Below are positions 3,677 to 17,517 of a stretch of DNA of 64,000 nt, one piece after another. The stretch spans positions 62,001 to 126,000 of the forward strand of contig JANYGI010000151.1 in assembly GCA_025362495.1 (NCBI GenBank), read 5' to 3'. The position numbers and the translations under genes are program-made. How positions within the stretch are numbered: the first letter of the stretch is position 1; every line of letters starts with the position of its first letter. This DNA is from Byssovorax sp. (GTDB lineage: Bacteria > Myxococcota_A > Polyangia > Polyangiales > Polyangiaceae). The notes under the pieces were generated by a model. The model made no database searches. It worked only from the letters and a program-made list of their open reading frames with translations, and was not told where the DNA came from.

Positions 3677-4639
3677 TTGTCCTCGAACTCCTCGAACGGC
3701 TCCCACCCCGAATCCACCTCACCGAAACGCGCCGCTCGGGGCGCGCTCATCGCCATCGGCGGCGCCGAGGACAAGGTCGGCGACCGCGCCGTCCTCCGCG
3801 ACGTGATCGAGCGCGCCGGCGGGAAAAAGGCCATCGTCGCCGTTTTTCCCACCGCGTCGAGCCTCCCGCAGGAGCTGTCGGCCACGTACGAAGCGATCTT
3901 TCGCTCGATGGGCGCCGAGGTCCGCACGGTGTGGCTGGAAGAGCGCGCCGACGCCGAAGATCCCGCGAACCTCGCGCTGCTGGAAGGCGTGACGGCGATC
4001 TTCTTCACCGGCGGATCGCAGGGGCGGATCGTGACGATGCTCGGCGGGACGCCGATGGCCACGGCCATTCGCCGCGCCCACCGGAGCGGCGTCATCGTCG
4101 CGGGGACGTCGGCCGGCGCGAGCGTGATCTGCGATCACATGATCGCCCAGGGAAAGCGGGGCTACGCGCCGCGACGGAGCAGCGTGACGCTGGCGCCGGG
4201 GCTCGGGCTGACGAAGCGGCTGGTCATCGATCAGCACTTCGCCCAGCGCCACCGCATCGGCCGGCTCTTCGCCGCAGTCGCGCTCAACCCGTTCCTCATC
4301 GGCGTGGGGATCGACGAGGACACCGGGTTCGTGATCGCGGCGAACAACCACGCCACGGTCGTCGGCCGCGGCACGGTGACGATCATCGACGGCGCGAAGA
4401 TCCTCCACACCGACATCCACGAGACCTCCGACGCCAACCCCGCGGCGCTGCTGGGGCTCTCGGTCCACGTGCTCACGCCCGGCTGCGGCTACGACATCGA
4501 CGCGCGACTGCCCACCTGGCAGGGCCAGAGCACGCGTCACTCCCGCAGGCCGCCGCCCCCGCCCCCGATGCCCATCACCTCGCTGTCGTACGACCCTGAC
4601 GACACCGCCGAGAACGACGAGAAAGAGAAGCAGTCGTGA
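3677..4639 (+). CDS. cphB: Cyanophycinase
   Basis: A 320-residue peptidase S51-type serine hydrolase that cuts cyanophycin (multi-L-arginyl-poly-L-aspartate) into beta-Asp-Arg dipeptides. Diagnostic features are IAIGGAEDKVGD at 26-37, TGGSQGRI near 111-118, and the nucleophile elbow AGTSAGAS with Ser145. No signal peptide is present, so it acts in the cytoplasm, as expected for an intracellular reserve. A TTG at 3677 is the only sensible start; it lacks a clear Shine-Dalgarno. The last residues are Pro-rich and acidic. Its stop overlaps the synthetase start (GTGA), so degradation and synthesis are translationally coupled. Confidence 0.92.
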   Translation: MSSNSSNGSHPESTSPKRAARGALIAIGGAEDKVGDRAVLRDVIERAGGKKAIVAVFPTASSLPQELSATYEAIFRSMGAEVRTVWLEERADAEDPANLALLEGVTAIFFTGGSQGRIVTMLGGTPMATAIRRAHRSGVIVAGTSAGASVICDHMIAQGKRGYAPRRSSVTLAPGLGLTKRLVIDQHFAQRHRIGRLFAAVALNPFLIGVGIDEDTGFVIAANNHATVVGRGTVTIIDGAKILHTDIHETSDANPAALLGLSVHVLTPGCGYDIDARLPTWQGQSTRHSRRPPPPPPMPITSLSYDPDDTAENDEKEKQS

Positions 4640-7305
4640 ACCTACTGGAGACTCGCGTGTACCGGGGGCCGAGCCCCTACGGCTACCGCCCCGTGATCCG
4701 CTTGACCCTCGATCTCGAGGAGCTCGAGCAGCACCCGAGCAACACGATACCGGGCTTCTGCGAGCGGCTGATCGAGGATCTCCCCTCGCTCGAAGAGCAC
4801 GGCTGCTCGTACGGCGAGAGGGGCGGCTTCCTGCGGCGGCTGCGCGACGGGACGTGGTTCGGCCACATCACCGAGCACGTGGCGATCGAGCTCCAGTGCC
4901 TCGCCGGGACGCCGGTCACCTACGGCAAGACGCGCAGCGCCGGGCGCGACGGCCTCTACCACGTGATCTACAGCTACGAGGACGAGCAGGTCGGGCGCCG
5001 CGCCGGGGATCTCGCGCTGCGCTACCTCCGCGGCATCCTGCCGGCGGGGTTCGTCGATCGCCTCGATCCCGGGGTGATGCTCAAGGACGAGCTCGAAGAG
5101 CTGGCGCGCCTCGCCGAGCGCGTGGCCCTCGGCCCGTCGACGCGCAGCCTGGTCGAGGAGGCCAAGCGCCGCGGGATCCCGACGATGCGCCTCAACGAGC
5201 GCAGCCTCGTGCAGCTCGGCTGGGGCATCCATCAGCAGCGCATCCAGGCGACGGTCACCAGCCGCACCCACCACATCGCCGTGGAGATCGCGCAGGACAA
5301 GCAGCTCACCAGCTCGCTGCTCGAGCGCGCGGGCTTGCCGGTGCCGCGCCACGAGCGCGTGCGCTCGGCCGACGACGCCGTCCTTGCCGCGCACCGCATC
5401 GGCTTCCCGGTCGTCGTCAAGCCGATGGATCTCTCGCACGGCCGCGGCGTGGCGCTGAACCTGATGGACGACGCGCAGGTCCGCGACGCGTACGAAAAGG
5501 CCTACGAGCTGAGCAGTTACGTGCTCGTCGAGGGCTACTGCAAGGGCAACGATCACCGCGTCCTGGTGATCGATGGCAAGGTCGAGGCCGTGGCCGAGCG
5601 CGTGCCCGGGCACGTCGTCGGCGACGGGACGCGCACCATCGCCGAGCTGATGGTGATCGTGAACGCCGACCCGCGGCGCGGCGTAGGCCACGAGAAGGTG
5701 CTGACGCGGATCGAGCTCGATCACCAGGCCGAGCGGCTTCTCGCGCTCGCGGGCCACACCACGGCGACGGTGCTGAAAGAGGGCGAGGTCTTCGCGCTCC
5801 GCTCGACCGGGAACCTGTCGACGGGCGGTACCGCGGTCGACAAGACCGACGTGATCCACCCCGACAACGCCGAGATCGCCTGCCGCGCCGCCAAGGTCGT
5901 CGGGCTCGACGTCTGTGGCATCGATCTCATCTGCGAGGACATCTCGCGCAGCGTGCGCGAGCAGGGCGGCGTCATCGTCGAGGTCAACGCGGCGCCGGGC
6001 TTCCGGATGCACGTGGCGCCGACGGTGGGCACGCCGCGCAACGTCGCCGCTCCGGTGATCGACATGCTCTTCCCGAGCAACGCGCCGGCGCGGATCCCGC
6101 TCGCCGCGGTGACGGGGACCAACGGCAAGACGACGACGTCGCGGATGATCGCGCACATCCTCAAGATGAGCGGCAAGCGCGTCGGCCTCACGACGACCGA
6201 CGGGATCTACATCGACGGCGAGCGCATCTTGAAGGGCGACATGACCGGCCCGTGGAGCGCGCGCGTGGTGCTCACCGATCCGACGGTGGAGGCCGCCGTG
6301 CTCGAGACGGCGCGCGGCGGCGTGCTCCGCGAGGGCCTCGGCTGGGATCGCTGCGACGTCGGCTGCGTGGTCAACGTCACGGCCGATCACCTCGGTCTGG
6401 GCGGCATCGACACCGTGGAAGATCTGGCCTTCGTGAAGCGCCTGATCGTCGAGGTCGTGCGCGACACGGGATCGAGCGTGCTCAACGCCGACGACAAGCT
6501 CTGCGTGGCCATGGCCGATCACGCCGAGGGGCGGATCATGTATTTTTCGCGCTCTTCAACCAACGACGTCGTCCGCAAGCACGTCAAGGGCGGGGGCCGC
6601 GCCGCGGTGATCGAGCAGGGCGTGCACGGCGAGATGCTGACGATCTACGACGGCGACCGGCACGTGCCCGTGACGTGGACGCACCTCATCCCCGCGACGC
6701 TCGAGGGCAAGGCGAAGTTCAACGTCGAGAACGCGCTCGCGGCGGCCGCGGTCGCTTACTCGATGGGGATCTCGCTCGAGCACATCCGCCAGGGGCTGCG
6801 CACCTTCACGACCTCGTTCTTCCAGGCGCCGGGGCGCTGCAACGTCTTCGACGAGCACCCGTTCCGCGTCATCGTCGACTACGGGCACAACCCCGCGGCG
6901 ATGGTGAAGATGGTCGAGCTCGTGCAGAGCCTCCGGCACCAGCGGGCCATCGGCGTGATGATGGCGCCGGGCGATCGCAAGGAAGAGGCGATCCGCGAGA
7001 TCGGTCGGATCGCCGCGCGGGCGTTCGACGTCATCGTCGCCAAGGAAGACTCGAACCGCCGCGGTCGCCCCGCCGGCGAGGTCGCGCGGCTGCTGCGCGA
7101 GGGCGCCGTCGAGGGCGGCGTCGCGCCCGAGAAGTGCCACGAGCTGATGACGGAGCGCGAGGCGATCGAGCTGGCGATGGCGATGGCGAAGCCGGGCGAT
7201 CTCGTCGTGGTCTTCGCCGACGACGTGACGGCGTGCTGGAAGCAGATCATCTACTGGGGCAAACCCGAGGCGGCCGCGCTGGCGGGCGAGCTTGCGCAAT
7301 CATGA
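4636..7305 (+). CDS. cphA: Cyanophycin synthetase
   Basis: An 889-residue, full-length CphA that adds Asp to the polymer backbone and Arg to its side chain using ATP. Residues 1-160 form the family N domain, about 210-485 the ATP-grasp domain (FPVVVKPMDLSHGRGV and VEVNAAPGFR are typical), and about 490-889 the Mur-ligase-like domain with P-loop GTNGKTTT at about 493-500. The GTG start overlaps cyanophycinase by 4 bases and the stop overlaps the isoaspartyl peptidase ATG (ATGA). Length and domain order match active CphA1-type enzymes. The polymer stores nitrogen, carbon and energy. Confidence 0.95.
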   Translation: MNLLETRVYRGPSPYGYRPVIRLTLDLEELEQHPSNTIPGFCERLIEDLPSLEEHGCSYGERGGFLRRLRDGTWFGHITEHVAIELQCLAGTPVTYGKTRSAGRDGLYHVIYSYEDEQVGRRAGDLALRYLRGILPAGFVDRLDPGVMLKDELEELARLAERVALGPSTRSLVEEAKRRGIPTMRLNERSLVQLGWGIHQQRIQATVTSRTHHIAVEIAQDKQLTSSLLERAGLPVPRHERVRSADDAVLAAHRIGFPVVVKPMDLSHGRGVALNLMDDAQVRDAYEKAYELSSYVLVEGYCKGNDHRVLVIDGKVEAVAERVPGHVVGDGTRTIAELMVIVNADPRRGVGHEKVLTRIELDHQAERLLALAGHTTATVLKEGEVFALRSTGNLSTGGTAVDKTDVIHPDNAEIACRAAKVVGLDVCGIDLICEDISRSVREQGGVIVEVNAAPGFRMHVAPTVGTPRNVAAPVIDMLFPSNAPARIPLAAVTGTNGKTTTSRMIAHILKMSGKRVGLTTTDGIYIDGERILKGDMTGPWSARVVLTDPTVEAAVLETARGGVLREGLGWDRCDVGCVVNVTADHLGLGGIDTVEDLAFVKRLIVEVVRDTGSSVLNADDKLCVAMADHAEGRIMYFSRSSTNDVVRKHVKGGGRAAVIEQGVHGEMLTIYDGDRHVPVTWTHLIPATLEGKAKFNVENALAAAAVAYSMGISLEHIRQGLRTFTTSFFQAPGRCNVFDEHPFRVIVDYGHNPAAMVKMVELVQSLRHQRAIGVMMAPGDRKEEAIREIGRIAARAFDVIVAKEDSNRRGRPAGEVARLLREGAVEGGVAPEKCHELMTEREAIELAMAMAKPGDLVVVFADDVTACWKQIIYWGKPEAAALAGELAQS

Positions 7306-8195
7306 GCTACGCGATCCTCACCCACGGCGGCGCGGCGTCGCCGCGGATCCTCTCGGACGGCTGCACGATCGCCGCGCAGCGGGCGCGCGCGGTGCTCGAC
7401 GACGGCGGCGACGCTTTCGCGGCAGCCCTGGCTGCCACCGTCGTGCTCGAGGACGACATTCGCTTCAACGCGGGCACCGGCTCGAACCTGCGCCTCGACG
7501 GCAAGCTCGTGCAGATGGACGCCGCGGTCATGGCCAGCGACGGGCGCTTCGGCGGCGTGGCCTGCATCGAGGCCGTGAAGAACCCGGTCCTCGTCGCCGC
7601 GCGGGTGATCGAGACGCCGCACCTCTTGCTCGTCGGCGAGGGCGCGACGGCGTTCGCGCGGCGACTCGGCTTCCCCGAGCACGATCCGGTGACCGAGGGC
7701 GCGAAGAAGAAATACGCGCGCTGCGTGGCCGAGCTCTGCGGCAAGGGCGACGGCGCCTACGCCGACGACGCCGCGCCGTGGAAGATCACCAAGCCGAAGC
7801 AGCTCTGGAACTTCCCCGGCGAGCCGCTCGAGTGCGACACGGTCGGCGCCGTGGTCCGCGACGCGCACGGCCGCTTCGCCGCGACCGCCTCCACCGGCGG
7901 CACGCTCTACATGCTCAAGGGCCGCGTCGGCGACTCGCCGCTGATGGGCGCGGGCGTCTACGCGGGCCCGCACGGCGCCGTGTGCGCGACCGGCGTGGGC
8001 GAGGACATCGTCCGCAATTTCCTGAGCAAGACGATCTACGACTGGCTCGCCGAGGGCCTGCCCCCGCAGCGCGCCGCGCAGCGCGCCGTGGCGCTGTTCC
8101 CCGACGTGGTCGACGTCGGCGTGCTGGTGATCGGCAAAGAGGGCCACGCCGTCGCCTCGAACCGCGACATGGCCCACGCGGCGCTCACGCCCTGA
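7302..8195 (+). CDS. Isoaspartyl peptidase / asparaginase, Ntn-hydrolase
   Basis: A 297-residue plant-type asparaginase (IaaA family). These precursors cleave themselves before a Thr that becomes the nucleophile; here the site is ECDTVGAVVRDAHG with Thr180, followed by the family ATASTGG stretch. The N-terminal part carries NAGTGSNL, also typical. In this operon the likely substrate is beta-Asp-Arg, the product of cyanophycinase, giving free Asp and Arg. The ATG overlaps the cphA stop by 4 bases. The 3' end overlaps the converging sensor kinase gene by 11 bases. The context makes dipeptidase a better guess than asparaginase, but substrate is inferred. Confidence 0.88.
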   Translation: MSYAILTHGGAASPRILSDGCTIAAQRARAVLDDGGDAFAAALAATVVLEDDIRFNAGTGSNLRLDGKLVQMDAAVMASDGRFGGVACIEAVKNPVLVAARVIETPHLLLVGEGATAFARRLGFPEHDPVTEGAKKKYARCVAELCGKGDGAYADDAAPWKITKPKQLWNFPGEPLECDTVGAVVRDAHGRFAATASTGGTLYMLKGRVGDSPLMGAGVYAGPHGAVCATGVGEDIVRNFLSKTIYDWLAEGLPPQRAAQRAVALFPDVVDVGVLVIGKEGHAVASNRDMAHAALTP

Positions 8196-9606
8196 CGAGC
8201 GCGCCCTCGCCGGGCGCCGCGGCGCGCAGCTCGACCGTGAAGCGACACCCCTCGCCCGGCGCGCTCTCGACGGTGATTGTGCCGCTCATCGACTCGACCA
8301 GGTGCTTGACGATCGAAAGGCCGAGGCCCGTCCCGCCGCGCTCGCGCGAGCGCCCGGCGTCGACGCGATAGAAGCGCTCGAAGAGCCGCGGCAGGTGCTC
8401 GGCGGCCACGCCGGGGCCGTCGTCCGTCACCACGAAGCGCACGCGATCCCCTTGCCGTGCGCCCTCGATCCGCACGACGCCGCCGGCCCTTCCGTACTTC
8501 AGCGCGTTGTCGACGAGGTTCTTCACCACCTGCTCGATCCCGTCGGGATCGCCCTCGGCGACCGCTGCCGGATCGATGGTCATGCGCACCGTGATGCCGG
8601 CCGCGGCGGCGCGCTCGCGCAGCGTCTCGACGACGTGGGCCGCGATCGCGGCGAGCCGCACCGCCTCGCGCCGCGTCTCGTCGGGCGGTCGCGCCTCGAG
8701 CTCGGAGAGCAGCAGGAGCCGCTCGATCAGCACCCCGAGGCGGCGCGCGTGACGGTGGATAATCTCGACGAATCGCCTGGATTTCTCGGCGTCCACGCCG
8801 CTGTCGAGCAGCGTCTCGGCGTAGCCCTGGATCGCGGTCACCGGCGTACGCAGCTCGTGGGACACGTTGGCCACAAAGTCCTTGCGCGTCGTCTCCAGCT
8901 TGCGGATCTGGGTCATGTCGCGCTGGAGGGCGGAGGCGAGCGAGCCGAGGGCGCGCGCGAGGACGCCGAAATCGTCGGGCGACTCCGGCGCGACGAACGC
9001 CGCGTAGTCGCCCTGCGCGATGCGGGTCGCGGCGGCCATCATCACGCGCAGCGGCCGCGCCGCGACGCGCGAGGCGACGACGCCGAGGCCAATCGCCGCG
9101 GCGACCGCGAGCCCCGCTGCGAAGAGCAAGCGTCGGCGCAGGTGGCTCACGGTCTCTTCGATCCCCGAGAGCGGCATCGCGAGGCGCAGCACCAGCCCGT
9201 CGCCCGCGGGCAGGGCGACGTAGCGCATCGCTTGCGATCCATCGGCTGCGCGCCGCGTCGCGCGCCCGATCCCCGAGGCCCGCGCCGCGGCGATCTCCGG
9301 CGCAAATTTGCCGTCGAACGAAGCCTCGCCGGCCTCCGAACCGCCGAGCGTGTTGCCCTCGCGATCGACGATGGTCACGCCCGCGCCGACCACGGCCGCG
9401 AGCCGCCCGGCCAGCTTTTCGGGGTGTCGCCCCGCGGTCACCCACTGCGCGGCGCCGACGGCCTGGAGCTCGAGCCGCCGATCGAGATCCGCCGCGAGGT
9501 CCGCGCCGAGCGAGCGGTCGAGATCGAAGAGCGCGATCAGCACCACGGCCGCGACGACGGCGACGTGGCTCGCGAGGAGCTTGGCGCGGAAGGTCAGGTG
9601 GATCAT
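8185..9606 (-). CDS. Sensor histidine kinase, PhoR-like
   Basis: A 473-residue membrane kinase. Membrane spans near residues 9-27 and 160-180 flank a periplasmic sensor of about 130 residues. A HAMP linker (about 180-232) leads to the H-box VSHELRTP with His250, then ATPase N-box NLVDNALKYG and G-boxes DDGPGV and GGTGLGLSI. It lies 4 bases downstream of a PhoB-like regulator and is surely its partner. PhoR is the nearest classic relative by layout, but no pst or phoU genes are in view, so the signal (phosphate or other) is unproven. Its 3' end overlaps the cyanophycin operon tail. Confidence 0.9.
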   Translation of the reverse strand: MIHLTFRAKLLASHVAVVAAVVLIALFDLDRSLGADLAADLDRRLELQAVGAAQWVTAGRHPEKLAGRLAAVVGAGVTIVDREGNTLGGSEAGEASFDGKFAPEIAAARASGIGRATRRAADGSQAMRYVALPAGDGLVLRLAMPLSGIEETVSHLRRRLLFAAGLAVAAAIGLGVVASRVAARPLRVMMAAATRIAQGDYAAFVAPESPDDFGVLARALGSLASALQRDMTQIRKLETTRKDFVANVSHELRTPVTAIQGYAETLLDSGVDAEKSRRFVEIIHRHARRLGVLIERLLLLSELEARPPDETRREAVRLAAIAAHVVETLRERAAAAGITVRMTIDPAAVAEGDPDGIEQVVKNLVDNALKYGRAGGVVRIEGARQGDRVRFVVTDDGPGVAAEHLPRLFERFYRVDAGRSRERGGTGLGLSIVKHLVESMSGTITVESAPGEGCRFTVELRAAAPGEGALVRA

Positions 9607-9610
9607 CGCG

Positions 9611-10336
9611 TCAGCGCTCGCGCAGGCGGTAGCCGAAGCCGTGCACCGTCTCGATCACGTCGCCCTGCGCGCCGAGCTTCTCGCGCAGTCGCCGCACGTG
9701 GGTGTCGACGGTCCGCGTGGTGATGTCCGCCGTGATCCCCCAGACCTCGTGGAGGAGCTCGGCCCGGGTGAAGACCCGGCCCGGGTGCTCGATCAGGAGC
9801 GAGATCAGCTTGTATTCCAGGGGTCGCAGCCCGATCTCGGCGCGGCCCCCGTACACGTGGTGGCGCACCGGATCGATCGAGAGATCACCCCAGGTGAGGC
9901 GTCGCCCCGCGTCGACCGAGCCACGCGCGGCGAGCCGCTCGCCCGCGCGACGCGAGAGCGCGCGCACCCGGAGCACGACCTCGCGCACGCTGAACGGCTT
10001 GACCACGTAGTCGTCGGCGCCGACCTCGAGCCCGAGGACCCGCGAGTCCTCGTCGCCGCGCGCCGTGAGCATCAGGATCGCCACGTCGGCGTTGACGGAT
10101 CCAGCTCGGATCCGACGGCAAACCTCGGTCCCGTCGAGATCCGGGAGCATCACATCGAGGACGATCACCGCGGGCGCGAAGGTCGCGGCGAGCGCGAGGC
10201 CCTGGGCGGCGGTGGAGGCGGACTCCGGGGAGAGGCCCGCCTCGCGGAGGTTGAAGAGCAGCAGCTCGCAGAGATCGGGCTCGTCGTCGATGACGAGGAC
10301 GCGCTCGGCGCCGGGGGCGGAGGGAGAAGCGAGCAT
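9611..10336 (-). CDS. OmpR/PhoB-family response regulator
   Basis: A 241-residue regulator. The receiver domain has acidic residues in VIDDEPD, phosphorylation site Asp61 in VLDVMLPDLDG, the conserved Thr in MLTARG, and Lys in VVKPFS. The C-terminal winged helix carries RPLEYKLISLL and the recognition region RTVDTHVRRLREKL ending in VHGFGYRL, all typical of PhoB/OmpR. I chose the ATG at 10336, which gives the usual short lead-in to VLVIDDEP; an open frame extends 35 residues upstream without family character. It forms a two-gene operon with the kinase that follows. Confidence 0.9.
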   Translation of the reverse strand: MLASPSAPGAERVLVIDDEPDLCELLLFNLREAGLSPESASTAAQGLALAATFAPAVIVLDVMLPDLDGTEVCRRIRAGSVNADVAILMLTARGDEDSRVLGLEVGADDYVVKPFSVREVVLRVRALSRRAGERLAARGSVDAGRRLTWGDLSIDPVRHHVYGGRAEIGLRPLEYKLISLLIEHPGRVFTRAELLHEVWGITADITTRTVDTHVRRLREKLGAQGDVIETVHGFGYRLRER

Positions 10337-10690
10337 GGCCCGCGAGGGTATCTCAGGCCGGATGCGCGGATCCTCGGTTGAGCGATCCCCGTTCAGATCC
10401 AGCCGCGGATCTCGCGGTGGGCAGCGATGGCTTCTATGCACCCTGCCTTGACGAACATCACCGCATCTGCGGAATCGACCATCCGGAGCAGCGCGACAAA
10501 AATCAAAATCTCCGAGTCCTCGCGTCCCTTGCGCCCTTGCGGTTTTCCCGCTCCGTGTTCGAGGATCGTGAACGGCGCTTCAGTCGACGACCAGCGCGCT
10601 CTACTCCCGATTCGGTCCGGTCATATCGCGAGGCCTTCCCGATCGATGTCCAGCGCGATGAGCCGCTCCCGCGCACGAACGGAATCGAGA
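10337..10690. other. Non-coding stretch between regulator and EXORDIUM-like gene
   Basis: These 354 bases lie between the start of the PhoB-like gene and the end of the next minus-strand gene. Open frames crossing them show no family features. They hold a short 9-base-periodic GCGYCCYT-type element at 10518-10548. They should also contain the promoter of the two-component operon, but I see no convincing -35/-10 pair. Confidence 0.5.
10518..10548. repeat. Short 9-base-periodic element
   Basis: On the minus strand the bases read as successive variants of CGCAAGGG with 9-base spacing, flanked by an AAAACC start. Elements of this look (AACCGCAAAGGCGCAAAGG-like) recur between genes in many bacteria, from general knowledge; function unknown. 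Confidence 0.45.
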
Positions 10691-12055
10691 TCAGCGCGCG
10701 TCCCAGTGGAGCATCTCCCACGCTCCGATCGACGTCCGGTTGGCGATGAGCGAGCTCTGGCCGGCGTTCTCCGCGGTGACGTATTTCCCGTTGGCGGCAG
10801 ACTGGAGGGCAAAGTAGCCGTTGCCGAGATCGATGTATTTGAACGTCTCCCAGGCTCCGACCGCGGCTCGGTTGGCGATGAGCGGGCTCGCGCCGGCATT
10901 GTCCGCGCAGACGTACTGGCCGTTGATGAGCGCCTTGATAGCGACGTTGCCGCCGCCCAGGTCGACGAGCTGGAATTTCTCCCAGGCTCCCACGGCGTCG
11001 CGATTGGCAATAAGCGCGCTCGTGCCGGCGTTCTCGGCCGTGATGTAGCGCAGGTCGGCGAGCGCGTTGATCGACACCGGGGCCCCGAACGGGACCGCCG
11101 GATCGTAGCTGAGGGCGCAGTGCCCGCCGCCGTCGTTCAGCCAGTTCTGCTGGATCAGGTAATCCCGGCCGCCGAGCTTCATGTTGGCCTTGCCCCCGTT
11201 GGAGGTGGTGTATTGCGCGCCGAAATTCCAGGCGCACTTGTCGGCGTTCTCGCCGCTGGCGTCGCCCCAGGCGTTGAGCTCGGGATCGGTGGCCGTCTCT
11301 TCGAGCTCGTGCGTCATGACCGAGATCATGTCGTCCGCGCCGGCGTTCCCGTTGGGGGTCGTCCCGAGGCCACCGCACGAGCCCCCGCACTTGTTCGCGT
11401 TCCCCACGAAGGCGTACTTGATCTTCGCGCCGGCGATGCTGGCGTAGGTGTGCCAGCCGCAGTATTGCGAGCAGAAGCCGTCCTTCGCCACGTCCGTCGA
11501 GGTGAGGACGAAATAGACGCCCTTCGCGTCGACCGGCAACTGGCCGCCGTTGATGGCGCCGGCGACGATGGTCTGGATGTCTCCATCGTTGAGCGAGGCG
11601 CCGCGCGAGTAGGCGTCCGACGTGGCCCCCGCGTAATTGACCACGTTCTTGACGAAGTTCCCGGAGCTGTCCGGGTAGCTCGTGTTGATGTTGAAGTACG
11701 GCGACTGGCCGACGTGAGATGCCCAGTCCGGGAAGATGGTGGTGGCCGAGTCGTTCGCCCAGTTGCCGTACCAGATGAAGTAGATGTTCACGCCGGAGGC
11801 CATGACCGGACCACCGCCGTAGCCGATACCGTTGCTGGTGCCCGCAGAGACCGAGGCCGACTTCTCGCTCGCCTGGGCCGGCGCAGGAGGCGAGACGAGG
11901 GTGCCGCCGCCTCGCCCGCTGGGCTTCCCGACGGCGGTGATCTCGTCGTACTGACGGTCCGTGGCGCCCTCGCTCGACTCTGGAGCTACCACACAGGCCA
12001 TTGCCAGCATACCCATCGTCACGGGGAGCGCGGCGAAAATAACGAGCTGCTTCAT
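10691..12055 (-). CDS. EXORDIUM/phosphate-induced-protein-like lipoprotein with beta-trefoil-like repeats
   Basis: 454 residues from ATG at 12055. A lipoprotein signal ends at LAMAC with Cys21. Residues about 75-320 match the plant EXORDIUM (phosphate-induced protein 1) family: IYFIWYGNW, GVYFVLTSTDVAKDGFC, GWHTY, KYAFVGNA, GADDMISVMTHELEE, ATDPELNAW. The HELEE at 249-253 followed by TDP looks like a metal-binding, peptidase-type motif, HExxE instead of HExxH. Residues about 336-454 form three repeats of about 40 residues with YVTAENAG and SLIANRxxxGAWE, like fascin or ricin-type beta-trefoils, probably binding carbohydrate. Upstream frame extension of 63 residues lacks signal character. Role in cell-surface or polysaccharide contact is inference. 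Confidence 0.8.
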   Translation of the reverse strand: MKQLVIFAALPVTMGMLAMACVVAPESSEGATDRQYDEITAVGKPSGRGGGTLVSPPAPAQASEKSASVSAGTSNGIGYGGGPVMASGVNIYFIWYGNWANDSATTIFPDWASHVGQSPYFNINTSYPDSSGNFVKNVVNYAGATSDAYSRGASLNDGDIQTIVAGAINGGQLPVDAKGVYFVLTSTDVAKDGFCSQYCGWHTYASIAGAKIKYAFVGNANKCGGSCGGLGTTPNGNAGADDMISVMTHELEETATDPELNAWGDASGENADKCAWNFGAQYTTSNGGKANMKLGGRDYLIQQNWLNDGGGHCALSYDPAVPFGAPVSINALADLRYITAENAGTSALIANRDAVGAWEKFQLVDLGGGNVAIKALINGQYVCADNAGASPLIANRAAVGAWETFKYIDLGNGYFALQSAANGKYVTAENAGQSSLIANRTSIGAWEMLHWDAR

Positions 12056-12609
12056 GGTCGCTTGTTCTCGGGAGAGGAAAGAGGATGAGCCGCGCGCCGT
12101 GCGCCCGCGGCATGCCCCGAAGAGCAACCCCCATGCCGCCGGGAGCAAGAGAAGAGAAGCTCTCCGCGACGAGCGCATCGAGGGCCAGTATCGAAGGTCA
12201 TGACGAGAATCTTGAAGCGTGGCTGTCGTACGATCCGACACCACGGCAGGTATTCGCGCTCACGGTAGATGCGTGGCGCGAGCCGCGGCCCGGCCGGGTG
12301 ATCGCGCGGATCGCGGGGGTGATCCCCGGGATCACACCCGCGAGGCGGCGCGGGATCGCGGACAGAGGAGCCACCTCCTGGCTTCGATCTCCGCCGCACC
12401 GATCGCGCCGTGGCGACTCTACCCATCATGGTCCCGCGCGTCGTCGGGGCACGACAGCGTCGCGGTCGCGGCCGTCCGAGGCAGCGTGCTCGACGTCATG
12501 GGAACGGCGTTATCACCCGGGCGCCTCGCGAGGATAGCGCGAGCACGTCGAGCCGGTGACGCGAGGCTTGACAGGGGCCTGGATCCTGGCGCCTCCTTGC
12601 CACGCGCCC
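12056..12609. other. Long non-coding region upstream of the EXORDIUM-like gene
   Basis: 554 bases between divergent genes. Open frames here are G+C shadows without recognisable motifs. The region carries an inverted-repeat cluster at 12296-12340 and presumably promoters for both flanking genes. No clear sigma70 boxes were found. Confidence 0.5.
12296..12340. repeat. Inverted repeat cluster, GGGTGATC half-sites
   Basis: Arms 12314-12325 (CGGGGGTGATCC) and 12329-12340 (GGATCACACCCG) pair with one mismatch around 3 bases. A further GGGTGATC half-site lies at 12296-12303. A near copy stands at 15217-15244. An operator-like site or a REP-type palindrome are both possible. Confidence 0.5.
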
Positions 12610-13659: not shown

Positions 13660-15087
13660 TCACGGAGCGCAGACTGCGGGCCTCGCCTCGGGAGCCCACC
13701 AGTTGCCGGACATGACGACCATCGACATGAGCTGGATCGTGTCCTCGTAGTAGCCTTCGGACGGGGCCGCCGCGATCGTCGTCCAGAGCTTGTTGAGCCA
13801 GGGCTTGTGGGCGCCGTCCGCCATCGCCGCCACGCCGAACGGCGCCGCGAAGGCCATGGTGAGGTAGTCCGAGCCCGCGCTCGGCGCGCCGTTCAGCTTG
13901 TAGCCGGCGCGGATCTTGGCCGGATCGCCGCCCGTGGCGCCCTCGATCCACGCCGTCAGCGCCAGGGCCTCCGTCTTCGGCCGCGCGTCGCCCGAGACGA
14001 GAAAATCGGTGCCGATCCGCCAGGGATCGCGGCAAGCATTGTAGTCGTAGGCGCCATCGTTGGCGCTCTCCAGGAAATTCGCCGGAGCGGGCTTGGGCGC
14101 CGTGAGCGGGCTGGTGATGAAGTCGGGGAGCAGGCCTTTGCCGGGGCTGTAGCTCGCGCGCATCGTCGCGATGAGCTGGTAGGTGCTGTCGGTGAGGCCG
14201 GCCCAGCTCGCCGAGCCGGAGGCCGCGCCGAAGCTGCGAAAGTGATCGGTGATGAAGTCCGACGATCGCGTCGAGTCGTGCTTGGCGTCGCCGGCCGCCG
14301 CCCAGTCGCCGAGCAAGACGTACCCCTTCGTGGCGTCGAGCGTGAAGGCGGAGATGGCCTTGATGACCTTGAGTCCCTCGGCCTTGTAGTTGATGGCGTC
14401 GCAGCTGCCCCACTGCTTGTCGGCGAGGAGGAGCGCGAAGGCGATGTCGAGATCCCCGTCGGAGGCGCTGTCCTGGCCCTGGGCGTCGGCGCACGTCGTG
14501 TCCTGATACCAGGCCATGAGGTCCGCCGACGACGAGCTCGGGTGATCGCGAAAGTAGCGATAAAGCCCGTCGAAATGCGCCCTGGCGTCGGGATCGTGGC
14601 CGGCCATGATCGCCGACAGGACCATGCCATAGCCGTGCCCCTCGGAGACGGTGAGGTTGCCCGCCTCGGTCTTGGTCTCGACGTAATACCGATCGGTCCC
14701 GCACCCGGCCTTGAGGTACTTGGCCTTCCAGTCGTCGTAGGCTTGCCCGGTGAGCTTGTCGAGCTGGGCTTGATTGACCACGTCCGGCAGGACGGAGCCC
14801 GGCGTGTAGGCCACGAGGTGCGAGCCAAAAGGCGTCGTGGGGACCACGATCCCCTGCCCGCTCCCGCTGCTGCTGGCGCCGCTCGTGGTCCCGGTCGCGG
14901 TGCTCGCGCCGCCGCCTTCCCCCGCGCTCGACGTGGTCGACGCGGCGCCGCCCGCGCCGCCCGCGGACGCCGAGCTGTCGCTCGACGAAGCGCCGCTGTC
15001 GGCCGTCGAGCCGGAAGAGGTAGTGGCGGGCGAGGTCGATCCGCACCCGACGAGGAGCGTGGCGAGGAGAAGCGCGGAGGTTCGCAT
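13660..15087 (-). CDS. GH8-family glycoside hydrolase lipoprotein
   Basis: 475 residues. The signal peptide ends in the lipobox LLVGC (Cys15), followed by about 60 residues of Ser/Thr/Gly spacer. From about residue 82 the protein is a glycoside hydrolase family 8 (alpha/alpha)6 barrel. VSEGHGYGM with Glu149 is the family acid region and ASDGDLDIAFALLLA with Asp210/Asp212 is the conserved Asp region. ACRDPWRIGTDF near the C-terminus is also typical. GH8 members act on cellulose, lichenan, chitosan or xylan; I cannot tell which here. It is likely anchored in the outer membrane facing outward and may degrade plant or microbial glycans. Confidence 0.85.
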   Translation of the reverse strand: MRTSALLLATLLVGCGSTSPATTSSGSTADSGASSSDSSASAGGAGGAASTTSSAGEGGGASTATGTTSGASSSGSGQGIVVPTTPFGSHLVAYTPGSVLPDVVNQAQLDKLTGQAYDDWKAKYLKAGCGTDRYYVETKTEAGNLTVSEGHGYGMVLSAIMAGHDPDARAHFDGLYRYFRDHPSSSSADLMAWYQDTTCADAQGQDSASDGDLDIAFALLLADKQWGSCDAINYKAEGLKVIKAISAFTLDATKGYVLLGDWAAAGDAKHDSTRSSDFITDHFRSFGAASGSASWAGLTDSTYQLIATMRASYSPGKGLLPDFITSPLTAPKPAPANFLESANDGAYDYNACRDPWRIGTDFLVSGDARPKTEALALTAWIEGATGGDPAKIRAGYKLNGAPSAGSDYLTMAFAAPFGVAAMADGAHKPWLNKLWTTIAAAPSEGYYEDTIQLMSMVVMSGNWWAPEARPAVCAP

Positions 15088-15251: not shown

Positions 15252-16394
15252 TCACTTCGCGAGCTGCATGAGCTTCGATCCATCGACCCAGTAAAGGTAC
15301 TTCTCGTCGGAAGCCATGCAGCTCGGGAACGGGCTCGGCGGGTTGAGGCCAGTCACGAGCTCGGCGGGGCCGCCCGTCTTCGCCACCTTCATCACGCCCG
15401 AAAAAGTCATGAAGTAGACGCTGGTCGCGTCCACCGTGAAGACGCCGGTGAGGCCGTGGGTGCCGTCGATCACGACGGTGGAACGCCCTCCAGCGGCGCT
15501 GAGGCGGGCCACGACGGCGCCCTGTCCCGGCGCGGGAGCGGTGGAGAAGTACACCGTATCTCCGTCGACCACGATCCCCGAGGCGATGTCGACCTGGAGG
15601 TTGAGATCGGGGCTGATCGGGCCGAGATCGGTCTGCGCATGGGTGGTCTTGTCCGCCTTCACGAGCCCCGTGCCGCCCCAGAAGTAAACGCTCGTCGCGT
15701 CGAGGGCGACGGTGCCAATACCGTAGAGGCCAGTCGCGAACACCTCGGGCTGCTGCGAGGGATCCACCGGCGGCGTCGCGGTCTTCGTGTCGTACACCGC
15801 CGCAGCGGTCGTGTCCGAGCCCGCCGTGAGGTAATAGAGCGTCGCTCCGTCAGCCGCCATGTGCGTGGGCGCTCCGAAGCCCAGCCCCGCAAAGGGGGTG
15901 ATGGCCGACGTGCCATTCTTCTTGCCGCGGGCGACGCCGTCGCCGGAGTCGACGTAAACGTAGGTGTCGTCGACGGCGAGTCCGGTGGGCTTTCCCACCC
16001 AGGCCTTGAACGTGGTGGCCGGTCCACCCGCCTTCGGGACGCTCCGCAGCTCGCTGTTCGTCCAGTAGACGCTCGTCGCGTCGAGGGCGATGGCGCACGC
16101 GGCGCCCGCGCTGCTGGTGTCGAGGGTGACGAGCGCGTGACACGACGAATCAAGGCAAATCTCGCTGGATCCGCACCCGGGCGCGCACGCGCCGGACGTC
16201 GCTCCGCCGGTGCCCGAGGTGGTCGTCGCGCCGGAGTCGCCGCCGCCGGATCCGCCCGCTCCCGTGGTCCCCGCCGACGTCGTCGAGGTCGCGCTCCCGC
16301 TGACGATCGGCTCGACGGCGCTGGGATTGCAGGCAATCGCCAGCGGGAGAGCCGCGGCGCAGGCGAGGAGAGACAAGCAAAGCCGGTGGTTCAT
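15252..16394 (-). CDS. Lipoprotein with beta-propeller-like repeats
   Basis: 380 residues from ATG 16394, which gives a good lipoprotein signal (LACAAALPLAIAC, Cys22). A Thr/Gly/Ser spacer and a small Cys cluster (ACAPGCGSSEICLDSSC) precede repeats such as IALDATSVYWTN, VALDATSVYFWG, FTVDATSVYFMT and ASDEKYLYWVDG. Each is followed by a segment like SVPKAGGPATT. Repeated VDATSVYF blades of about 45-50 residues suggest a 6- to 7-bladed propeller, like many uncharacterised myxobacterial surface lipoproteins. No catalytic residues seen; likely a binding or scaffold protein on the outer surface. Confidence 0.75.
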   Translation of the reverse strand: MNHRLCLSLLACAAALPLAIACNPSAVEPIVSGSATSTTSAGTTGAGGSGGGDSGATTTSGTGGATSGACAPGCGSSEICLDSSCHALVTLDTSSAGAACAIALDATSVYWTNSELRSVPKAGGPATTFKAWVGKPTGLAVDDTYVYVDSGDGVARGKKNGTSAITPFAGLGFGAPTHMAADGATLYYLTAGSDTTAAAVYDTKTATPPVDPSQQPEVFATGLYGIGTVALDATSVYFWGGTGLVKADKTTHAQTDLGPISPDLNLQVDIASGIVVDGDTVYFSTAPAPGQGAVVARLSAAGGRSTVVIDGTHGLTGVFTVDATSVYFMTFSGVMKVAKTGGPAELVTGLNPPSPFPSCMASDEKYLYWVDGSKLMQLAK

Positions 16395-16418
16395 TCGATG
16401 TGCCCTTCGAGGGTGAAG

Positions 16419-16433
16419 CGGGCAGATTGCCCG
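16419..16433. terminator. Short hairpin CGGGCA/TGCCCG
   Basis: A 6-bp perfect stem with loop GAT between the stop at 16480 and the start at 16394 of two minus-strand genes. No T-run on the minus strand; weak terminator candidate. Confidence 0.35.
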
Positions 16434-16479
16434 TCTTTCCCCGAGTGGCCTCGACGCGTCGCCGCGGCTCACGGCGCGG

Positions 16480-17517
16480 TCACAAATCGACGCTGACGCC
16501 GAGCGCGAGCATCCCGAGCGGGCGACCCCACGCCGCCACCGGGCGCCCCGCGAACGAGATGTCGACGCGCGAGAGGGCGAAGCCGAGCCGCCCATCCAGG
16601 TAGAGGTTCGTGCGATCGGTGAGGCGCGGCGCGAAGCCGGCGCCGAAGATCGGGAGCGCCGAGACGACTTCGCTGGTGGTGCCCTGATACGGAGCGTCGG
16701 CGAATCCGCTGGTTCGCACCCACGCGAGCGCGAGTCCGGCGCTCGCCGTCAGCCGAACGCGCGGCGTCGGGCTGGCCACGACGGTGACGTCGAGGCCCAG
16801 GAGCGGCGCGGTCAGCGAGGCCGAGCCTTCGGTGGCCTTCACTGTCGAGCCGATCAACGGGACGCTGAGAAAGCCGCCCAGGCCGAGGTGCTCGAGCGCC
16901 ATCCACCGCGTCTTGAGGCCGAGATGAAGGGCCGGGCCGCCCGGCTGGAACGGGACGCCGAGGTCTGCCCCGACGAGGAAGCGCGGCCGCGGCGCGGGCG
17001 CGGGCGCGTTGACGACGGGAGCCACCGGGGCCGGGGCGTTGACGATGGGTACCGCGACGACAGGCGCGTTGACGAGCGGCGCCCGGGCCGCCAACAGCGG
17101 AGCGACCGCGGGCGCGCGCAGCGGCTGGAAGAACGCGCGGAGCTGCTCCGACGCGCGGACGGTCTGGCTGGCGTCGTCGTCGTCCGGCGACGGCATCACG
17201 ATGGCGCGCTCGGTGAGGCGACCCGTGGCGCCGTCGACGATCCAGAGCTCGATCCGGCGCGCGGGGCTCTCGATCACGCGCGCGGCGGCGATCGCGGTCG
17301 TGCCCGTCGCGGTGACGTCGGAGCCCGGCTCGATCTCGAAGCCCATCGCCTCGATCTCGGCGCGCACGCGGGCGCTGAACGGCGTCGGCTCGGCCACGAC
17401 GAAGAGGACGCGGGGGCCGTCGGCGCGCGCGCGGCGCGGGCTCAGCGCGGCGATCACGACGAAGGCAGCGGCGGCGATCACGCTCGGGATGCGACGGCGG
17501 CGGCGAGGGATTGTCAT
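16480..17517 (-). CDS. Exported envelope protein of the sigma/FecR operon
   Basis: 345 residues. A basic N-terminus and hydrophobic core ending at ARADG form a signal peptide. Residues about 35-125 form a periplasmic domain (VLFVVAEPTPFSARVRAEI). A repeated Ala/Pro/Val spacer with three VVNAPAP-like units follows. The last 170 residues alternate hydrophobic and polar residues with aromatic and Gly patterns (FLVGADLGVPFQPG, LGFALSRVDISFAG, LALGVSVDL) and end in Leu, suggesting an outer-membrane beta-barrel. Its ATG overlaps the FecR-like gene stop by 4 bases. It may be the target or sensor of the sigma/FecR-like pair; inferred from operon position. Confidence 0.7.
   Translation of the reverse strand: MTIPRRRRRIPSVIAAAAFVVIAALSPRRARADGPRVLFVVAEPTPFSARVRAEIEAMGFEIEPGSDVTATGTTAIAAARVIESPARRIELWIVDGATGRLTERAIVMPSPDDDDASQTVRASEQLRAFFQPLRAPAVAPLLAARAPLVNAPVVAVPIVNAPAPVAPVVNAPAPAPRPRFLVGADLGVPFQPGGPALHLGLKTRWMALEHLGLGGFLSVPLIGSTVKATEGSASLTAPLLGLDVTVVASPTPRVRLTASAGLALAWVRTSGFADAPYQGTTSEVVSALPIFGAGFAPRLTDRTNLYLDGRLGFALSRVDISFAGRPVAAWGRPLGMLALGVSVDL

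Follow-up and report, generated by a model that had tools for sequence, protein, structure and literature searches.

A bacterial EXORDIUM-family protein that joins a predicted metzincin-like domain with a conserved HExxE motif to a CBM92 module

We analyzed a stretch of 64,000 nucleotides from Byssovorax sp. (contig JANYGI010000151.1, positions 62,001 to 126,000; here called the window) and found a gene for a secreted protein in which a Phi_1/EXORDIUM-family domain is followed by a C-terminal CBM92 module. The Phi_1 domain is predicted to have a metzincin-like fold and carries a HExxE motif that is kept in nearly all of its bacterial relatives. In the models, this motif lies on a helix that has, in chain order, the place of the metzincin active-site helix. 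We see about an even chance that the protein is a hydrolase of metzincin-like fold that depends on a metal and is held on beta-glucan walls; it would most likely be a peptidase.

The gene lies on the minus strand and runs in one uninterrupted frame from an ATG at 12055 to a stop at 10691, encoding 454 amino acids; an alternative in-frame GTG start lies upstream at 12244. Its features, in window coordinates, are as follows.

10691..12055, minus strand: whole gene, secreted Phi_1/EXORDIUM-CBM92 protein, 454 amino acids plus stop (open reading frame, Pfam)
11993..12055, minus strand: N-terminal hydrophobic segment ending A-M-A-C21, signal peptide and possible lipobox (sequence by eye)
11192..11821, minus strand: Phi_1/EXORDIUM domain, residues 79-288 (PF04674 match, 3e-27)
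11102..11842, minus strand: domain modeled alone, residues 72-318, predicted metzincin-like fold (pLDDT 95.4, pTM 0.93, VIA Z up to 9.3)
11288..11344, minus strand: long helix with HExxE, residues 238-256 (DSSP on models)
11285..11311, minus strand: HELEETATD motif with H249, E250, E253, and D257 (sequence, conservation)
11234..11251, minus strand: conserved ENADKC with E269, D272, and C274, candidate third-ligand region (alignments, model)
10697..11050, minus strand: CBM92/DUF7910 module, residues 336-453 (Pfam, 7zoh alignment)
10971..11060, minus strand: repeat 1, DNA copy of family D1 (DNA repeat search)
10839..10928, minus strand: repeat 2, DNA copy of family D1 (DNA repeat search)
10707..10796, minus strand: repeat 3, DNA copy of family D1 (DNA repeat search)
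10979..10984, minus strand: putative sugar site 1, Trp358-Glu359 (7zoh alignment, site from PMC11039641)
10847..10852, minus strand: putative sugar site 2, Trp402-Glu403 (7zoh alignment, site from PMC11039641)
10715..10720, minus strand: putative sugar site 3, Trp446-Glu447 (7zoh alignment, site from PMC11039641)

A preliminary description of this DNA, made from the sequence alone, had proposed an EXORDIUM family core, and the Pfam search bore this out, since PF04674 (Phi_1, EXORDIUM family) matched residues 79-288 at 96.1 bits (3e-27) against a cut-off of 25. The same description had called the protein a lipoprotein. The hydrophobic segment and Cys21 agree with that, but A-M-A-C at residues 18-21 deviates from the lipobox consensus L-[AS]-[GA]-C and the GTG at 12244 offers another start. 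Better lipoboxes occur in the myxobacterial relatives L001 (I-G-G-C) and L013 (L-V-G-C), and among 87 family N termini, with starts picked by a heuristic, 15 fit a loose lipobox pattern with its Cys. With its imperfect lipobox, the window protein is plausibly, though not certainly, a surface-anchored lipoprotein.

The motif in the window protein reads HELEETATDPE, and the preliminary description had numbered its residues H249, E250, E253, and D257 correctly. We aligned relatives with a domain profile that did not require the motif but was itself derived from an alignment (A1) whose open reading frames had been chosen by [HQ]E..E, so that the H/E/E invariance in A1 is partly by construction. 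The domain-profile alignment had 112 rows, 12 of them duplicates, leaving 100 distinct bacterial proteins. H249 and E250 were kept in all 112 rows and E253 and D257 in 111 each; among the distinct proteins, these counts become 100/100 for H249 and E250 and 99/100 each for E253 and D257, and the exceptions are L029 (E253K) and L097 (D257N). C199, H202, E269, D272, and C274 were also kept in 112 of 112 rows, where the conservation of E269 and D272 is partly by construction in the relatives scan, because its query included the peptide ENADKCAW. HExxE was present in 20 of 20 proteins found with the Pfam profile (our own count, with duplicates of the loci from the earlier relatives scan left out), and a very divergent actinobacterial protein (L151) keeps HELIEAETDP and EVGDLC. 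Because the motif is conserved in relatives that were found without using it, it is not a chance pattern. In the alignment, the consensus also has a Met in ANM(K/x)LG after the HExxE helix; this Met is a candidate for the metzincin Met-turn but is not invariant.

We predicted the structure of the Phi_1 domain alone with AlphaFold2 from an alignment (A2) of 99 sequences, which held all 100 distinct rows, the window domain among them, except a shorter L108 row. The model had a pLDDT of 95.4 and a pTM of 0.93, and DSSP placed HExxE on a 19-residue helix, followed by a short helix inside ENADKC. In a Foldseek search of the PDB with the domain model, the first ten matches were snake-venom metzincins (best E 0.032); neither the full-length nor the domain model had a PDB match at an E of 0.001 or below. 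With VIA-align, all 50 listed rows were metzincins, and Z ran from 9.3 in the first row to 7.9 in the last. At rank 50, a model that lacks a clear match usually gives Z 4 to 5, and values below 8 may reflect a common arrangement only. The rows aligned 147 to 175 residues at an rmsd of 3.3 to 4.9 and covered model residues 15-237; the top row was 1nd1 (Z 9.3, rmsd 3.7, 159 residues). They included venom enzymes, ADAM, ADAMTS, and TACE proteins, an archaeal zinc peptidase (3lmc), and 6o38, which we take to be the metzincin CpaA; the absence of other folds from this list is no evidence against them. The metzincin group also came first for the full-length model. Since the list is uniform and its rank-50 Z is 7.9 rather than the usual 4 to 5, a chance alpha/beta arrangement is disfavored. 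The Phi_1 domain is thus predicted to have a metzincin-like fold. The preliminary description had seen a metal-like motif in HELEE-x3-D. Its reading as an active-site motif is supported by the models, which put it on the helix where metzincins have HExxH.

The sequence of the window protein departs from the metzincin signature HExxHxxGxxH/D, with Glu at +4, T256 at +7, and E259 at +10, and Glu at +4 is found in 99 of the 100 distinct Phi_1 proteins. When we compared the Phi_1 family with eight bacterial metzincins of two types by hhalign, the probability was 0.9% over 8 aligned columns, and profile searches of the PDB with the Phi_1 family returned nothing significant. Because the signature is absent and hhalign gave no homology, we speak of a metzincin-like fold and not of a metzincin; common descent is unsupported. 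Microbial transglutaminase was considered as another relative, since 8 of 99 Phi_1 members gave weak sequence matches to it (best 6.3e-4). The similarity covers profile positions 190-228 (about residues 261-299 of the window protein) and an ungapped 39-residue stretch of 1iu4, in which Phe stands where the 1iu4 chain has the catalytic His of its WTHG stretch. We set this identity aside, as the match is weak and the catalytic His is apparently missing.

The C-terminal part of the protein matched PF25490 (DUF7910) in three stretches (56 bits, 5.8e-15; Pfam cut-off 35). Three repeats of 44 residues begin at residues 336, 380, and 424, and in the DNA they appear as three 90-nucleotide copies spaced by 132 nucleotides, two of them matching the reference copy at 77% and 70% of positions, in agreement with the three repeats seen earlier by eye. 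The closest solved structure for residues 336-453 was the CBM92 domain 7zoh (1.1e-16), with 42 of 113 aligned residues identical. PMC11039641 lists 7ZOI and 7ZOH in the order CpCBM92A, CpCBM92B, and we read 7ZOH as CpCBM92B; the same source describes CBM92 as having three subdomains, each with one Trp-Glu sugar site, and as favoring polysaccharides with Glc-beta-1,6-Glc. In the alignment to 7zoh, every repeat has an Arg-x5-Trp-Glu (R352/W358/E359, R396/W402/E403, and R440/W446/E447). From this sequence evidence, we assign the repeats to a CBM92 module of the trefoil type that is predicted to bind glycan. The carbohydrate-module part of the earlier proposal of a fascin/trefoil-like domain is thereby supported by the 7zoh match and the three Trp-Glu pairs, but the Pfam search found no fascin family in the window protein at an E of 1 or below. 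AlphaFold2 modeled the repeat part of the full-length protein weakly (pLDDT about 32-61), so the beta-trefoil rests on the sequence match.

Other DUF7910 modules in the window genome are found on a GH26 protein (L135), on a GH5 protein (L141), and on a protein with no further Pfam match at 1e-5 (L146). A second genome of the same family has them on GH5 (L138), GH18 (L144), and ricin-lectin (L142) proteins. Because the module occurs on several enzymes, we take it to be a shared glycan-targeting part that is here attached to a Phi_1 domain.

To follow the domain in other bacteria, we used a relatives scan with one genome per species and a query that included the ENADKCAW peptide; it gave 261 relatives, and the best 80 of the 261 belonged to records whose titles name Acidobacteria, Proteobacteria, Myxococcales, Verrucomicrobia, Actinomycetes, and Armatimonadetes. 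Phi_1 is sparse under even sampling with the seed genome counted: in the window's phylum 4 of 377 genomes have it, and in its family 5 of 108. The phyla of genomes G377, G378, G379, and G381 had it in 11/247, 2/398, 2/337, and 3/346 genomes, the seed genome again counted in each and one of the two in the phylum of G379 being an unconfirmed candidate below the family cut-off. The candidate L149 was under the family cut-off and was missed by the domain profile, and we excluded it. One genome from the phylum of G377 has two adjacent Phi_1 genes (L106).

Most of the 100 distinct Phi_1 proteins (88) end within 40 residues of the domain, and 11 are longer. The combination with CBM92 was found in the window protein only (1/100). 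The window genome also encodes a paralogue (L002:1078-2400:-) that is 72% identical to the window protein in the Phi_1 domain and has, in place of CBM92, three QxDGNLVxY motifs that are presumably of the mannose-lectin type; its score against B_lectin, 31.3 bits, is slightly below the cut-off of 32.4. Among the other relatives, L063 and L072 carry TIG, chitobiase C-terminal (CHB_HEX_C), and LamG-type domains, L025 carries an Ig domain, L096 carries FG-GAP repeats, and L006 has FG-GAP repeats N-terminal of Phi_1. The survey of PF04674 partners that the preliminary description had called for thus yielded lectin-type and CHB_HEX_C/LamG partners, but no second case of CBM92. The strongest hint in this anatomy is that one genome has different glycan-binding modules on similar cores, which suggests that the core acts at glycan surfaces. 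One bacterial EXO homologue was known in 2009, according to PMC2661892.

Clustering of adjacent open reading frames across related loci revealed no conserved neighbor or operon partner. The largest clusters consisted of frames that overlap the Phi_1 gene or run antisense to it, as judged by their spread and position, and after these came generic ones, such as ABC ATPases. In the window, the Phi_1 gene is directly followed downstream on the same strand by genes (8185-10441, minus strand) for a response regulator nearest PhoB (222 bits, under the model cut-off) and a histidine kinase nearest PnpS/PhoR. We set aside a phosphate link through this PhoB/PhoR-like pair, as the family name "phosphate-induced" stems from plants. 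Near the Phi_1-CBM92 gene there is also one for a secreted-looking glycoside hydrolase family 8 protein (13660-15087, minus strand; 1.1e-28). A protein encoded at 15252-16595 (minus strand) weakly resembles SinM, a signal integration modulator, in three stretches (1.4e-9, far under the cut-off), and a full-length cyanophycin synthetase, above its NCBIfam cut-off, is encoded at 4636-7305 (plus strand).

We examined how substitutions in the window domain, some of them to plant-like letters, affect its PF04674 score (99.2 bits for the unchanged domain). The score fell with H202A (4.4 bits), C274S (3.4), and E269A (2.8), and less with E253A (2.1), H249A (1.6), and E250A (0.7). The single swaps S249, L250, G253, and S272 changed it by -0.8, +0.3, -0.1, and +0.2 bits, and replacing HELEE with SLLAG raised it by 2.0 bits. 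E252A and D257N also raised it, by 2.7 and 3.4 bits. The profile, whose seed we take to be mainly plant, therefore favors H202, E269, and C274, prefers Asn at 257, and seems to hold motif-keeping and motif-lacking forms that are mixed at H249, E250, E253, and D272. These results agree with the absence of HExxE from Arabidopsis EXO, as far as we know, and with its presence as HELAE in some EXL-type proteins. Some plant members may have lost the HExxE site, and EXO itself may be a degenerate form. The earlier expectation that the bacterial motif would point directly to the activity of plant EXO is weakened, as plant-like letters barely change the PF04674 score or raise it.

A wider reading is that the whole EXORDIUM/PHI-1 family is an unrecognized branch of metzincin-like metallohydrolases with a HExxE site, which bacteria and a subset of plant EXL proteins would keep and use to cut wall or matrix proteins, the EXO clade being a pseudoenzyme and the window version being delivered to beta-glucan walls. 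We offer this tentatively, with the balance somewhat against it. The mode of action of EXORDIUM proteins was stated to be unknown in 2013 (PMC3691544). We found no stated activity for the family in the literature searched and no paper tying it to a metzincin- or zincin-type activity or to a relevant AlphaFold model, in sources that included few subscription journals.

For the window protein, we propose the following mechanism. The protein would be secreted by a myxobacterium-like soil bacterium and probably exposed on its outer surface. H249, E253, and one acidic residue (D257, E269, or D272) would be the metal ligands, and E250 would be the general base. With such a site, the Phi_1 domain would be a hydrolase that depends on a metal and most likely cuts peptide bonds in wall or matrix (glyco)proteins. 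The CBM92 trefoil would hold the protein on beta-1,6-branched glucan through its three Trp-Glu sites, with fungal or oomycete walls as probable targets. The protein would thus be a targeted wall peptidase, parallel to the myxobacterial GH5 and GH26 proteins that carry the same module and would be targeted glycosidases. The mannose-lectin-type module that L002 has in place of CBM92 fits such glycan targeting.

The main rival to this proposal is that Phi_1 is a noncatalytic binding protein with a metzincin fold, a pseudoenzyme that serves as a wall-bound adhesin or receptor and whose conserved H/E/E/D cluster is there for a structural ion or for hydrogen bonding. Glu in the place of the second His is unusual in a zinc protease, and ADAM22, an inactive metzincin-fold protein, is among the best VIA-align matches. 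Many fusion partners are of the adhesion type (TIG, Ig, LamG, and FG-GAP), and a domain without the motif still scores well against PF04674. However, the near-total conservation of H249, E250, E253, D257, E269, and D272 across phyla resembles that of an active site, and we know of no structural role for the E250 position in HExxH helices. We regard the pseudoenzyme as rather unlikely.

A metal-dependent hydrolase that uses the metzincin scaffold on nonpeptide bonds, such as glycan ester, amide, or glycosidic bonds, is improbable in our judgment. The glycan-binding partners (CBM92 in the window, the mannose-lectin type in L002, and CHB_HEX_C with LamG in L063 and L072) would suit it, as would the presence of the same CBM92 type on glycosidases of the window genome and the tie of plant EXO to extracellular carbon status reported in PMC3691544. 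Against it, the listed structural neighbors are peptidases or their inactive relatives, and the Phi_1 domain matches no glycan-active family. That the fold match is a common alpha/beta arrangement, with Phi_1 a nonmetzincin fold of its own kind and HExxE a coincidence, would fit the Foldseek and hhalign results and the weak transglutaminase matches, but with all 50 VIA-align rows metzincins over model residues 15-237 and the HEL helix at the metzincin place in the chain, we consider it very improbable.

The predicted metzincin-like fold and the conserved HExxE helix give a first testable idea of what EXORDIUM-family proteins do. These proteins control plant cell expansion, and the presence of HExxE would predict which plant members are active and which are inactive. 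The sugar-binding modules on the bacterial copies point to glycan-rich cell walls as the place to look for substrates.

Among known systems, the metzincins (adamalysins, ADAM, ADAMTS, and archaemetzincin) resemble Phi_1 in its predicted fold and in a helix with a motif that starts with HE, but they have HExxHxxGxxH/D where Phi_1 has HExxE-x3-D. PMC6851300 and PMC10167328 call CLCA1 a zinc-dependent metalloprotease and its motif "HEXXE"; as labeled there, this motif would be a precedent for a HExxE metal site, a comparison made by description, with the HEXXE label taken from those papers only. The plant EXORDIUM/PHI-1 proteins share with the window protein, which scores above the PF04674 cut-off, the preference for H202, E269, and C274 and the property of being secreted. 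They have about 300 amino acids, with a conserved region that is nearly the entire primary structure (PMC2661892), whereas the window protein has an added CBM92 module. That module resembles CpCBM92A and CpCBM92B (7zoi and 7zoh) in its alignment and its three Trp-Glu sites, but the partners of CBM92 named in PMC11039641 are glycoside hydrolases (e.g., GH5, GH16, GH18, GH25, GH30, and GH99), and the partner here is Phi_1. Compared by description from the same source, Corallococcus LamC is likewise secreted by a myxobacterium and has a fascin-like/CBM92 module that binds beta-glucan, joined in LamC to a GH16 beta-1,3-glucanase and in the window protein to a Phi_1 domain.
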